Origin: Cryobacterium shii
GTDB lineage: Bacteria > Actinomycetota > Actinomycetes > Actinomycetales > Microbacteriaceae
Reading direction: 5' to 3'
Length of the DNA stretch: 64,000 bases
NCBI RefSeq assembly: GCF_004402595.1
Contig: NZ_SOFY01000013.1
Coordinates: forward strand, 1 to 64,000
The translations under genes and the position numbers were made by a program. Of the stretch, positions 9,717 to 12,740 are shown one piece after another. The notes beneath the pieces are model-generated. The model was not told where the DNA came from. It made no database searches and saw nothing but the letters and a program-made list of their open reading frames with translations. The first letter of the stretch is position 1; every line of letters begins with the position of its first letter.

Positions 9717-9802
9717 GCCGGTGTGGCGGAATGGCAGACGCGGAGCACTCAAAATGCTTTGTTCGAAAGGACGTGTGGGTTCGAGTCCCACCACCGGTAC
9801 CA
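9717..9802 (+). tRNA. tRNA-Leu (anticodon CAA)
   Basis: The sequence folds into a class II tRNA. Acceptor strands are GCCGGTG (9717-9723) and CACCGGT (9792-9798), with a terminal G-U pair and discriminator A. The D arm is GCG...CGC. The anticodon stem GAGCA/TGCTT encloses the loop CTCAAAA (anticodon CAA, reads UUG codons). A long variable arm is present, and the T arm is GTGGG-TTCGAGT-CCCAC. CCA is encoded in the DNA (9800-9802). The long variable arm together with CAA makes Leu the only reasonable call. Confidence 0.95.
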
Positions 9803-9856: not shown

Positions 9857-10336
9857 CTAGTCGCGCACGCCGGGCAGCGTGACGTCGTCCCGGGACATGT
9901 CCTCCTCGAGCAGCGCCGTGATCGACCGAAGCGTCTCCGGTGACACATCCCCGAGCACCCGGGCCGCGAAGTTGACGACGCGTTTGGCGCGCAGGCTCTT
10001 CACAAAGACCAGTTGGGCGTCGACCCGTTCCGGCAGGTCGCCCGACCCGAGCAGGTACTTGGGCGGGATGCGGAAGAACTCGCCGATCCCGGTGAGCAGG
10101 TCGGCGTCGGTGACCAGTGGGCCGTCCCCCGTGATCATGTAGGCCCACCGGGCGCGCGACAGCGAGAGGCCCCGCGCTTCCAGGCCCGCGGCGATCTGCT
10201 TGTACGTATGGGGAGTGTTTCCCTCGGCGACGACGACATCAAGCAGCAGGTTCAGTTTGCGGGCCAGTTCGAGCTGCGGGCTGACGGGTTCGCCGGCCGG
10301 GTTCAGCGAGCCGTGGGATGTTCCGGGGTTGATCAC
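9857..10336 (-). CDS. EspR-like helix-turn-helix transcriptional regulator
   Basis: A 159-aa protein. Residues about 22-105 form an XRE-type HTH region laid out like mycobacterial EspR (LARKLNLLLDVV...PHTYKQIAAGLEARGLSLSRAR...GIGEFFRIPPKYLL). A C-terminal helical part at about 106-145 probably mediates dimerisation. It is the last gene of a three-gene operon; its ATG overlaps the stop of the membrane-protein gene by 4 nt (ATGA). Proteins of this type are usually found beside an ImmA/IrrE protease gene, as here, which suggests it is the regulated repressor or activator of the set. Target sites may be the repeated palindromes at 11916-11965. Confidence 0.8.
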   Translation of the reverse strand: MINPGTSHGSLNPAGEPVSPQLELARKLNLLLDVVVAEGNTPHTYKQIAAGLEARGLSLSRARWAYMITGDGPLVTDADLLTGIGEFFRIPPKYLLGSGDLPERVDAQLVFVKSLRAKRVVNFAARVLGDVSPETLRSITALLEEDMSRDDVTLPGVRD

Positions 10337-11367
10337 GATCGCCCGCCCCCTTCGAGAACCTCGGGGTGGTTAACCGGGCGGCGGGTCGCCGTCGCCCGGA
10401 CGTGGCGTTCGATGTCCTCGATCAGCGCCCGCTCGGCCGGGGAGACGGCCTGACCGGGGTTGAGGAGCAGGCTGTCGCGGACTTCGACGTAGCGCCGATA
10501 CAGGTGGGCACGGGGATCCCTGACGATGAGCAGCATCGGCCAGGTGAGCCGGCGCTCGATGCTCAGCTCCGGCGAGTCCGCCAGGAGACGTTCCCAGAGA
10601 GGCGTGATTCGCCACAGCAACTCGCGGTGCCGAACGCTTTTGCGCGCGGATTGGATCGCGTCCGCTGTCGCGGTAAGGCCCAGGCCGACGGCCAGGGATA
10701 TCGGCGCGGTGAGGAGGGCGAGGTGGTACACCGGGCGCGACCAGACCTGGAAAGCGGTCTCCTTGAGGAGGATCAGTTCCGCTGCATCGAACATGCTGAG
10801 CAGCGCGTAGACCAGAACCCACCAGCATCCGAAGGCCACAAACGCAAGCGACACGCGGGTCACCGTGCGCCGTTGGCGTCGAAGGTCCGACAGGCAGGCG
10901 TACCCCACCGAGATGGAGAAGAGGGCCATCGCGATCCAGGTCGTGGCGGAGTATGCGGCGAAGTCCCACCGCGTCGGGAACGACTTGTGGATCTCCCGGA
11001 CAAGGTGCCAGTCGCTGCCGAAAAACAGAATGGCCTGGACGGCGATGATCGCCGCGGCCGCCGCGGCGCTGACCTGCTTGCGTCGCTCGGTCAGTCGTTC
11101 ACCGGATACCGCCTCCCCCACGAGCGCAGCGAGGAGTGTTATCGCCACGATCGCCGTGGCGTGGAAGATGAAGTACGGCACGTTGACGCCGCCGAGTAGG
11201 GCGTCCACCGCGTTGTAGATGACGTGCGGCTGAAGGGACATGGTCGTGGCGAACGCGGTCAGAAACCAGAACAACGTCCGCCGCCGACCGCGAATGACCG
11301 AGGGCAGGCAGAAGCCGGCGGTGACCCACAGAAGCGCGGAAACGGCGAGGAGGGCGGTCTGCATCAC
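10333..11367 (-). CDS. Seven-helix membrane protein with cytoplasmic C-terminal domain (MAB_1171c/DUF6545-like)
   Basis: The 344-aa product shows about seven hydrophobic segments in its first 236 residues, starting with LLAVSALLWVTAGFCLP. A charged cytoplasmic domain follows (WRITPLWERLLADSPEL; DPRAHLYRRYVEVRDSLL). This layout matches the family annotated as MAB_1171c-like putative transporter; true transport activity is unproven and a sensor role is equally possible. Both ends overlap neighbouring genes by 4 nt (ATGA), so the three proteins are made from one message in a coupled way. Confidence 0.8.
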   Translation of the reverse strand: MMQTALLAVSALLWVTAGFCLPSVIRGRRRTLFWFLTAFATTMSLQPHVIYNAVDALLGGVNVPYFIFHATAIVAITLLAALVGEAVSGERLTERRKQVSAAAAAAIIAVQAILFFGSDWHLVREIHKSFPTRWDFAAYSATTWIAMALFSISVGYACLSDLRRQRRTVTRVSLAFVAFGCWWVLVYALLSMFDAAELILLKETAFQVWSRPVYHLALLTAPISLAVGLGLTATADAIQSARKSVRHRELLWRITPLWERLLADSPELSIERRLTWPMLLIVRDPRAHLYRRYVEVRDSLLLNPGQAVSPAERALIEDIERHVRATATRRPVNHPEVLEGGGRS

Positions 11368-11924
11368 AGCACCCTGCCGAATCCGGTTTGGGGGCCCTTG
11401 GCGGCATCCGCCTCGTCCTCCAGCATGATCAGCGCCAGCCGATCCCCGATCGCCTCCGCGAGGGCCTCTTGGTCGTCGGTGAAGCTGCTCCGGGACAGCG
11501 CATAGGCGATGGCGTCCAGCGGGATGAGGGGCGCCAGCAGGGCGACCCGTTCGATCGGCAGAAGTTCCTTCTCGTGACGGAGGATCATGTGGCCGAATTC
11601 GTGGTTGATGAATTGCTGGCGGTGAACCGCCGAATCCGTCGGTGCGTGATGGATACGTTCGAAATTCTCACCGGCGACCTCGATCCAGAGCCCGCAGACG
11701 CCGGACTCGACCAGGCGCGTGCTGGCGGGGCGGATGACGATCGTCTTCCCCCGGAGCCCCTCCATGTGCCGGTGGAGCAGCTCCGCCGTCAAAGGATGCG
11801 GCAGGTGGAGGGCGGCTACCAGGTCGCGCGCCCGCTCCGTGCGTTTTTCGTACCTCAGGCTGTGTTCCCCACTCACTGCGCCACGGCAACCCCCTTCGGG
11901 GGACGCCGAATCGGCGTTGGACAT
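11364..11924 (-). CDS. ImmA/IrrE-type zinc metallopeptidase
   Basis: A 186-aa protein with the zinc-protease motif HEFGH at residues 108-112 (context QFINHEFGHMILRHEKEL), typical of ImmA/IrrE-like domains that cut a partner HTH repressor in ICEBs1 (ImmA/ImmR) and Deinococcus (IrrE/DdrO). It is the first gene of the operon. Two in-frame start codons, at 11924 and 11960, lie inside two copies of a 14-bp repeat, and both would begin MSN; neither has a convincing Shine-Dalgarno, so a leaderless message is possible. The start at 11924 is chosen because the extra upstream residues are not family-like. The substrate is inferred to be the HTH protein two genes downstream. Confidence 0.8.
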   Translation of the reverse strand: MSNADSASPEGGCRGAVSGEHSLRYEKRTERARDLVAALHLPHPLTAELLHRHMEGLRGKTIVIRPASTRLVESGVCGLWIEVAGENFERIHHAPTDSAVHRQQFINHEFGHMILRHEKELLPIERVALLAPLIPLDAIAYALSRSSFTDDQEALAEAIGDRLALIMLEDEADAAKGPQTGFGRVL

Positions 11925-11965
11925 GTCTAACAGGTGATAACGTGAATCTCGGTTGGACATGTCTA
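11916..11965 (-). promoter_or_regulatory. Two identical 14-bp sites with a GACATGTC palindrome
   Basis: GTTGGACATGTCTA occurs at 11916-11929 and again at 11952-11965 (plus strand), exactly 36 bp apart start to start. Each has the self-complementary core GACATGTC and each contains, on the minus strand, an ATG that could start the metallopeptidase gene. Spacing near 3.5 helical turns and the position at the operon start suggest paired operators. Alternatively they reflect a small duplication. Confidence 0.5.
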
Positions 11966-12269
11966 CGCTACCGGGTCGGAGGGCCCGCAGTCGCCATGGG
12001 GAGCCAACCATTCACGCTCCTTTCGGAGTGTTCACGCGCACAGTCTCACCGGGGCGACACCGAAGGGGAACGGGGTGTCCACCCGGTGAGGCGGTGCGTG
12101 CAGAACTCCGGCGGGCGACGACTCAAATCGGCGAGTCGAACTGCGGAATGCTCGGTATCAGATTCGGGTGCCCACGTCTGCCCCCAGTCTGGGCTGCGGC
12201 ATCCGCAATAGGGTGGAGCGACGAAAAGACCTGTTGAACCGCGTACTCGACCCGAACAGAGGATGCCCC
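11925..12269. other. 345-bp divergent intergenic region
   Basis: Separates the metallopeptidase operon (leftward) from the HD-domain gene (rightward). Besides the repeated 14-bp sites, it holds a TAGGGT box at 12209-12214 that could be a -10 for the rightward gene, without a good -35. Short open frames here have no coding bias and are not called as genes. Confidence 0.5.
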
Positions 12270-12740
12270 GTGACAACACTTTTGGACGACGCCATCCACT
12301 TCGCGCGCGTTGCGTACTCCAGCCACCGCGACGATTTCGGTCGGCTGGCCATCGAGCATCCGCTTCGCGTGATGGATGCCCTCGCGAGCGACGACAACAG
12401 GCTCGTCGCCGTGCTGCACGACACCCTCGTCAACTCGGTCGCCACCCTCAGCGACCTCCGCGCGTTCCTGCCGAACCGCCTCCTGATGGCCGTCAGCGCC
12501 CTCGGCAACATCGACGAGGACACGGACGGGATCTCCCTGCAGCAGATCCTGGCCGACCCGATCGCGCTCACGGTGAAGCTCGCGTGCATCGCGGACCTGT
12601 CCGATCCGGCCCGCCTGGCCGACCTCGACCCGTTCACCCGGCGGAGCCGGGAATCGCACGCCGTGTCGGCCGCGCTGGCGCTGGGAACGACCCTCCCCGC
12701 CGAGCGCGCCCTGATGGTGCCCGCCGGCGTGCAGCGCTGA
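12270..12740 (+). CDS. HD-domain protein (RelA/SpoT hydrolase-like HD)
   Basis: The 156-aa product carries the metal-binding His of IEHPLRVM (His30) and the HD pair of VAVLHDTLVNS (His50-Asp51), arranged as in the (p)ppGpp hydrolase domain of RelA/SpoT. A later conserved segment reads TVKLACIADLSDPARL, like the VKLADRLHN region. No synthetase or TGS domain is present. It may be a small alarmone or nucleotide hydrolase, but the substrate is unproven. GTG at 12270 is chosen because AGAGGA at 12258-12263 lies 6 nt upstream. It converges on pyk, with a shared terminator between. Confidence 0.72.
   Translation: MTTLLDDAIHFARVAYSSHRDDFGRLAIEHPLRVMDALASDDNRLVAVLHDTLVNSVATLSDLRAFLPNRLLMAVSALGNIDEDTDGISLQQILADPIALTVKLACIADLSDPARLADLDPFTRRSRESHAVSAALALGTTLPAERALMVPAGVQR

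Follow-up and report, generated by a model that had tools for sequence, protein, structure and literature searches.

A recurrent actinobacterial gene trio encoding a putative zinc protease, a seven-helix DUF6545 membrane protein and an EspR-family regulator, with conserved operators and a candidate structured RNA in Cryobacterium

Three overlapping genes lie on the minus strand between a tRNA-Leu(CAA) gene and a pyruvate-kinase-like gene (pyk, named by eye) in a 64,000 nt stretch of the Cryobacterium shii genome (contig NZ_SOFY01000013.1, positions 1 to 64,000; from here: the window). They encode an ImmA/IrrE (M78)-like zincin with the motif HEFGH (IMM, 11364..11876, the start being estimated from relatives), a membrane protein of the DUF6545 / MAB_1171c family with seven helices, N-out/C-in topology and a cytoplasmic C-terminal domain (MEM, 10333..11367) and a predicted EspR-family DNA-binding protein (HTH, 9857..10336). 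A preliminary description of this DNA had reported three genes joined by two ATGA overlaps. The three overlapping genes hold, but the junctions read GTGA twice owing to GTG starts. The same description had placed the IMM start at 11965, which is probably wrong because this ATG sits within a conserved operator repeat (11944-11965, with a copy at 11908-11929). The open frame of IMM spans 11364-12011 and extends upstream of the likely real start at 11864-11876; the IMM starts of relatives fall near these positions, about 90-100 nt further downstream than 11965, giving a protein of about 165-170 amino acids.

The HEFGH zinc-protease motif noted earlier for IMM was confirmed, and HExxH is present in 86 of 86 family members. 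In all 36 aligned IMM proteins the residues H, E and H and a downstream glutamate (E137) are invariant. IMM hence displays the motif combination of the ImmA/IrrE (M78) proteases, HExxH plus a downstream acidic ligand, and it is by this motif that we provisionally group it with M78, profile support being weak. The Pfam profile PF06114 matched 10 of the 36 proteins at E<=0.01 (best 7.8e-6) and the PADLOC capP profile for CBASS (cyclic-oligonucleotide-based antiphage signaling systems) matched 13; the window IMM itself gave no match to either at this threshold. A PDB profile search with the IMM family yielded no solved relative.

MEM matches DUF6545 (PF20182) in its C-terminal part, residues 245-304, with 32.8 bits against a cut-off of 24.4. 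Its match to NF042915 (E 1.3e-27, 96.8 bits) lies just under the cut-off of 100, and in the genome search it reached 100.4, over the cut-off. The seven hydrophobic segments and the cytoplasmic domain proposed earlier reappear in the family mean as seven hydropathy peaks with alternating loop charge: loops 1, 3, 5 and 7 are positive and loops 2, 4 and 6 negative, which gives an N-out/C-in orientation. This count of seven is a property of family-mean hydropathy and charge; counts from single sequences range from 3 to 13. MEM is thus a seven-transmembrane (7TM) protein by helix number and orientation. Its structural model is of low confidence (predicted local distance difference test, pLDDT, 64.8), and a PDB profile search with the MEM family gave nothing useful. 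Among the 50 fold matches listed for the model, 46 are 7TM receptors, G-protein-coupled receptors (GPCRs), rhodopsins or designs after them, the best with E 0.05 and none at E<=0.001.

These matches bear on the reading of MEM as a transporter, in line with its NCBI family name, that is regulated by the HTH/protease pair. The name of NF042915 speaks for it, as does a Mycobacterium abscessus mutant screen that, in its accessible part, calls MAB_1171c a transporter (PMC8707978), the sole paper found for DUF6545 or MAB_1171c in the literature searched; a match to ABC2_membrane (E 0.34, 10.8 bits vs 26.9) is at chance level. However, no significant transporter match was obtained, and seven helices in N-out/C-in orientation with a cytoplasmic domain, together with the receptor- and rhodopsin-like fold matches of the level given above, point elsewhere. 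We regard a transporter as distinctly unlikely.

The EspR-like helix-turn-helix reading of the third gene was borne out. The window protein matches EspR in the PDB with E 8.9e-8 and the family profile does so with 6.6e-41, and the similarity, which extends over the full length, places the HTH family in the EspR family. Window-type HTH proteins (66-99% identical) occur in 44 of 57 Cryobacterium genomes. As a separate observation, the best HTH match crosses one TGA in the loci L234-L238 of five genomes related to one another (G603, G629, G622, G586 and G596). The HTH protein of a hydrolase-type relative, L060, had no match in the phage collection.

A relative of MEM was found in 14 of 199 genomes of the family, and 86 of the 394 genomes sampled from the actinobacterial class had a match to the NF042915 family, 56 of them above its cut-off. 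For the comparison of neighborhoods we used 87 MEM loci, namely the window, six of seven Cryobacterium loci (L025, a contig-end fragment, was omitted) and 80 chosen places; the choice favoured strong matches, so these loci are not a random sample. Using iterated profiles on either strand within the fetched stretches, IMM was found near MEM in 86 of the 87 loci and HTH in 73. The preliminary description had named the absence of such co-occurrence elsewhere as grounds for giving up its reading, and the families do occur together across the class. The trio recurs across the actinobacteria as a module.

On the MEM strand, the order HTH-IMM-MEM was the commonest (36 loci, and 10 more with a hydrolase gene behind); 17 loci had just IMM-MEM, and the window type IMM-MEM-HTH was listed for 10 loci. 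Two annotated plasmids (L146, L147) carry IMM-MEM-hydrolase-HTH; hence, the window has the order of these plasmids with an empty enzyme slot. In the window's family, this slot is filled by an alpha/beta-hydrolase family in 10 operons. Moreover, heuristic gene calls placed a same-strand gene from outside the trio and the hydrolase family within 150 bp behind in 37 of the 86 non-window loci. A Pfam scan of 33 of these 37 loci (without L020, L059, L064 and L069) plus the L060 hydrolase gave 31 families; among the 25 listed were PAP2 (9), FAD-dependent oxidoreductase (8), amidohydrolase (3), amidase (2), P450 (2) and, once each, SDR, methyltransferase, PadR, DUF222 and alpha/beta hydrolase, the latter from the L060 protein. 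The slot enzymes suggest small molecules or lipids as the signal.

Part of the family rides on conjugative elements, as deduced from neighboring genes and plasmid records. TrwC relaxase, Prim-Pol, DUF2637, ArdC and ParB-like genes are among the neighbor clusters, each of which recurs at 5-9 of the 87 loci; one scanned member served to name each cluster, and the ParB-like one scored 25.7 bits, just under its cut-off. Twelve plasmid records hold a MEM gene, nine of them typed conjugative, and window-type trios occupy several chromosomal sites within the single genus Cryobacterium. These data would suit a toxin-antitoxin (TA)-like or immunity module of the ImmR/ImmA type that keeps a conjugative element quiet and of which the chromosomal copies are remnants. 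Yet the clusters appear in just 5-9 of 87 loci, MEM and the varied enzymes would stay unexplained, and trio and operators are kept in 41 of 57 Cryobacterium genomes, plus one in which the trio is split over two contigs. We therefore consider this explanation unlikely.

The 41 complete single-contig window-type loci of Cryobacterium (38 plus the window, L056 and L057), one per genome, all possess the palindrome TTRGACATGTCYAA. It lies before IMM in 32 of them and only behind HTH in nine. Upstream of IMM it is single, or double at a spacing of 36-37 bp, in the window and its Cryobacterium relatives. In the window, operator copy 2, the palindrome GTTGGACATGTCTAAC, is located at 11916..11931 and copy 1, 36 bp from it, at 11952..11967; copy 1 overlaps a stretch of the trio promoter, TAGCGT, that by eye resembles a -10 box. 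In genome G621, where the trio is distributed over two contigs (L208, L259), the operator again precedes IMM. One of the 41 loci, L225, has a broken protease frame. The incomplete window-type loci L228 (HTH alone) and L239 (IMM-HTH) had no operator. At L239 (genome G605), IMM and HTH stand together and a membrane relative of 47% lies far off at L284 (G605:C1:343008), a rearranged or split system. L257 (G616:C36) and L283 (G609:C17) are decayed copies of the operon, and in L283 the RNA region described below outlives the genes.

A second operator type was found in the hydrolase-type relatives, with TTGAGCATGCTCAA-like sites in 8 of 10 loci (L059-L066), 2-4 per locus and spaced by about 45, 22 and 22 bp. 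In 6 of these 8 loci one such site sits between a TTGATT -35 box and a -10 box, within a spacer of 17 bp, and a seventh has a variant of this. Both types share TT-N3-CATG-N3-AA. In the 31,109 upstream bases of the 87 regions there were 44 sites compared to 0.74 in Markov sequences, and 43 of the 44 fall in the two operator groups. Among seven further second-type operons of Cryobacterium (L251-L256 and L258, with L256 having a broken MEM gene and no hydrolase match), L252, L253, L254, L255 and L258 have one to three sites near the HTH start. Apart from the trio, L261 (G631:C1:838000-844000) carries TTAGGCATGTCTAA, which resembles an operator, next to a gene that by eye looks like an integrase, and genome G631 has three such copies about 52 kb apart.

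The distribution of sites also concerns the role of HTH, which could be an EspR-like nucleoid protein or activator, with the protease acting elsewhere, e.g. on MEM. The full-length similarity to EspR would agree with this, given that EspR autoregulates and binds widely according to the accessible part of PMC3315491. In the window's own genome, however, no 13-bp site with <=1 mismatch exists besides the two at this operon, and 16-bp sites with <=3 mismatches are near the control level (27 vs 18 per strand), which suggests a narrow regulator. A nucleoid or activator role appears quite improbable to us.

In the nine genomes with the operator behind HTH (L240-L248), it is followed by about 200-250 nt that are conserved, look non-coding, carry indels and contain hairpins with G6 loops; a large part is deleted in L244. 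In the remaining 32 loci, the same kind of hairpin tends toward the strand leading away from the trio. At least one hairpin with a G-run loop was present on the divergent strand in 5 of 6 loci of group A (to which the window belongs), 14 of 17 of group B, 4 of 4 of group C and 5 of 5 of group D, compared to 3 of 32 on the trio strand. In group E it was present downstream in 9 of 9 loci and on the opposite strand in none of 9. Of the background windows, 128 of 820 had one. Groups A and E had been inspected before the G-run-loop criterion was chosen, and the independent test is that on groups B-D. The window is the group A miss, as the scan with a stem of 8 reported no hairpin in it. Outside the window-type Cryobacterium loci, G-run hairpins favored neither strand, the four combinations of strand and side each having between 16 and 23 of 78, and for this reason we claim the RNA for the window-type Cryobacterium group alone.

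In the window, the candidate non-coding RNA is divergent from the trio and extends over about 11940..12100 on the plus strand, with both ends being estimates and the 5' end near a TAACGT -10-like box (by eye). The group A alignment and fold speak for it, and groups B-E have RNA regions of a similar kind. Its conserved hairpin (12036..12099, plus strand, loop GAAGGGGAACGG) has two covarying pairs in group A, one at columns 22/43 with A-U in 3 of 6 and G-C in 3 of 6 sequences. In group B (15 of 17 sequences), 93.8% of cells were paired, with 45 double-change cells vs 14.6 after shuffling and 3-14 after sliding, counted on the very alignment from which the structure was derived, which favours it. 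RNA structure is supported by computation in this one group. R1, a covariance model of group B, had 18 strong matches (E<1e-5) in the 57 genomes, 17 of them at trio operators, of which 15 are the training loci of R1 itself; the eighteenth, in G609, lies beside a decayed MEM gene and a decayed operator (the latter by eye). A search of genome G000 with R1 gave no match. A scan of 13 loci with Rfam at gathering thresholds reported nothing but tRNA. A photolyase-related gene follows downstream of the RNA region in at least two loci of group E (L241:5163-6797, plus strand, by Pfam; L242 by eye).

In group B the divergent RNA lies upstream of metH (by eye) and might be a 5' leader of this neighbor gene, unrelated to the trio, the more so as metH may start 227-263 nt from the operator in L214 and L216. 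Against a leader, metH begins about 750 nt away in L219 and L224, similar RNA regions start at the operator in other surroundings (on the pyk side, behind HTH or at other genes), and no R1 match with E<1e-5 was found away from a trio locus or relic in the 57 genomes. We judge a leader to be improbable overall, although in group B it is a rival to be reckoned with.

A clue to the possible function of the RNA came from a permissive Rfam scan of L241, which returned below-threshold matches, mostly on the opposite strand, to small RNAs including sX13, ar14 and 6C. The small RNAs sX13, ar14 and 6C have C-rich loops. 6C RNA (RF01066) is a two-hairpin small RNA of actinobacteria with C6 loops, to which the G-run loops found here are complementary. 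At E<=1e-3, 6C matched in 44 of 57 Cryobacterium genomes; the Rfam cut-off was exceeded in 3 of 57, the matches mostly lay just under it, and genome G000 had none. The 6C-like sequences (L288-L327) form two hairpins with UUCCCCCCAA in the loop region in all 20 sequences listed. Of the 41 RNA strands, 26 contain at least one 8-nt word complementary to the 6C loops (group A 5/6, group B 5/17, group C 4/4, group D 3/5, group E 9/9), whereas none of the 41 opposite strands and 48 of 2050 background windows do; the mirror control of this test was positive in 8 of 41, all in group E (8 of 9 there). The G-run bases are unpaired above average (0.52 vs 0.32). The longest perfect complementarity between RNA and 6C averaged 8.35 nt vs 7.44 nt after shuffling and 7.26 nt for the opposite strand (31 pairs), but against dinucleotide shuffles it was indecisive, as 25 of the 31 pairs were reached by more than 2 of 40 shuffles and several of the longest matches lay outside the loops. 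It is the test directed at the loops on which the link to 6C leans.

The G-run loops may form kissing complexes with the C6 loops of 6C and thereby free its mRNA targets. The extended scheme, in which a 7TM receptor of GPCR-like type, a zinc protease encoded separately and a repressor of the EspR type form a split BlaR/BlaI-like chain with such an anti-6C decoy RNA as its output in Cryobacterium, is put forward tentatively and we rather doubt it: group B gives it little backing, and the hairpin loop of the window provides just 7 nt (GGGGAAC, by eye). Two other assignments of the RNA were rejected. It is no member of the 6C RNA family RF01066, the weak 6C match of L241 being on the opposite strand only (26.6 vs 47 bits). 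A CsrA sponge of the CsrB/RsmY type had no Rfam match, two of four CsrA-less genomes (G592, G599) keep the trio and the RNA region, and GGA is paired in the stem in groups B and C (by eye). A CsrA gene (PF02599) is present in 53 of the 57 Cryobacterium genomes, e.g. at G000:C52:63244-63396.

We interpret the locus as a receptor-protease-repressor switch that would regulate itself and, in Cryobacterium, have the adjacent RNA as an output, a reading to which we give somewhat better than even chances. The EspR-family HTH protein would bind the palindromic operators and repress the trio and, in Cryobacterium, the adjacent structured RNA. MEM would sense a signal outside the cell or in the membrane and, through its cytoplasmic domain, control IMM, its likely role as controller following from the near-constant pairing of both genes. 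IMM would then cleave or otherwise inactivate HTH and thereby release the promoters; inactivation of HTH is its most likely activity by analogy to ImmA/ImmR and PprI/DdrO. In other actinobacteria, the released output may often be the enzyme gene behind MEM; in the window, with its empty enzyme slot, the RNA is the likely output. In the nine genomes with an operator only before the RNA behind HTH, the RNA alone would be the target. The preliminary description had proposed a transmembrane proteolytic switch, and the topology, the protease motif, the EspR-family regulator and the conserved palindromes fit it, while sensing, protease activation and cleavage are inferred, as are repression, the nature of the signal, the order of events and both the target and the transcription of the RNA. 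That description did not mention operators, an RNA region, an enzyme slot or a link to conjugative elements.

Several observations weigh against this interpretation. No recognised HTH lies nearby in 14 of the 87 loci. The window IMM stays below the gathering cut-off of PF06114 (13.9 vs 22 bits), and its fold model failed (pLDDT 49.6, no structure match). Nine Cryobacterium loci have no site ahead of IMM. The CATG-type operator is missing in the hydrolase-type loci L069 and L070, in the two plasmid loci inspected (L146, L147) and in the second-type operons L251 and L256. A general test for palindromes of 16 bp that occur repeatedly gave a positive result for 8 of 87 loci vs 0.4 in shuffles, with only 1 of 70 positive outside the two operator groups, and the reading of autoregulation is therefore confined to these groups; the test was also positive in 0 of 9 Cryobacterium loci, and having missed all of them it is insensitive. 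Single palindromes noticed by eye at other loci are not counted as operators. As for the RNA, in addition to the derivation of the group B structure and the training loci among the R1 matches, the folding energies in group B are similarly low on both strands compared to shuffles and thus cannot choose the strand, the group B RNA has metH behind it, and the group B model does not recognise the RNA of the window, so that we claim no homology of the RNA across groups. Our confidence was lowered very slightly because of the nine loci without an operator before IMM and because most R1 matches are training loci.

The proposed switch can be compared to several known systems. ImmA/ImmR of ICEBs1 from Bacillus subtilis likewise combines a small HExxH protease with an Xre-type repressor on a conjugative element, but in the accessible parts of the sources ImmA is linked to RapI and RecA and not to an operon-encoded membrane protein, and the regulator here is of the EspR type. 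According to sources available in part, IrrE (PprI)/DdrO of Deinococcus has a similar protease-repressor derepression but responds to DNA damage and has no 7TM partner. CapP/CapH of CBASS also works by protease-repressor derepression upon DNA-damage signals and is not known to have a 7TM partner; the capP matches among the 36 IMM proteins are a further likeness to the present system. BlaR1/BlaI and MecR1/MecI consist of a membrane sensor, a zinc protease and a repressor, with sensor and protease in one protein, whereas here they are encoded by separate genes.

EspR of Mycobacterium tuberculosis belongs to the same family over its full length. Its sites are TTTGC motifs, which at the EspR promoter form an inverted repeat 16 bp apart; autoregulation was reported, and no partner trio appears in the accessible part of that work (PMC3315491); the sites described here are 14-bp palindromes with a central CATG, TTRGACATGTCYAA or TTGAGCATGCTCAA-like, and TTTGC itself was not searched for. 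Pairs of COG2856 proteases and Xre regulators were presented as candidate TA-like regulators by Makarova et al. 2009 (PMC2701414); in the accessible part of that survey, three Xre pairs with membrane proteins are set aside, and the trio and the RNA are absent. Trio and RNA are also not described in the titles and abstract starts of the entries listed by the literature searches, within a search whose reach most subscription papers lay outside. New here are the conserved operators, a structured RNA region running from the operator and the words complementary to 6C loops on the RNA strand.

In the surroundings of the module, the tRNA-Leu(CAA) gene at its 3' end lies at 9717..9802 on the plus strand, outside the module. 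Between the trio and pyk there is an open frame at 12168-12740 (plus strand) that looks by eye like an HD hydrolase; two relatives of the pyk side, L209 and L211, were inspected and did not show it there.

If the proposed switch is correct, it would provide a function for DUF6545, a membrane family of unknown function according to Pfam, and it would show a protease of the ImmA/IrrE type tied to a membrane signal. EspR would join a family whose other members are encoded together with a protease and a protein resembling a receptor. The variety of the enzymes behind MEM points to a sensor module of the plug-in kind, which could help to find new signals. If the RNA titrates 6C, the control of an actinobacterial small RNA would become testable, and an external signal would be wired to a small-RNA sponge in actinobacteria.

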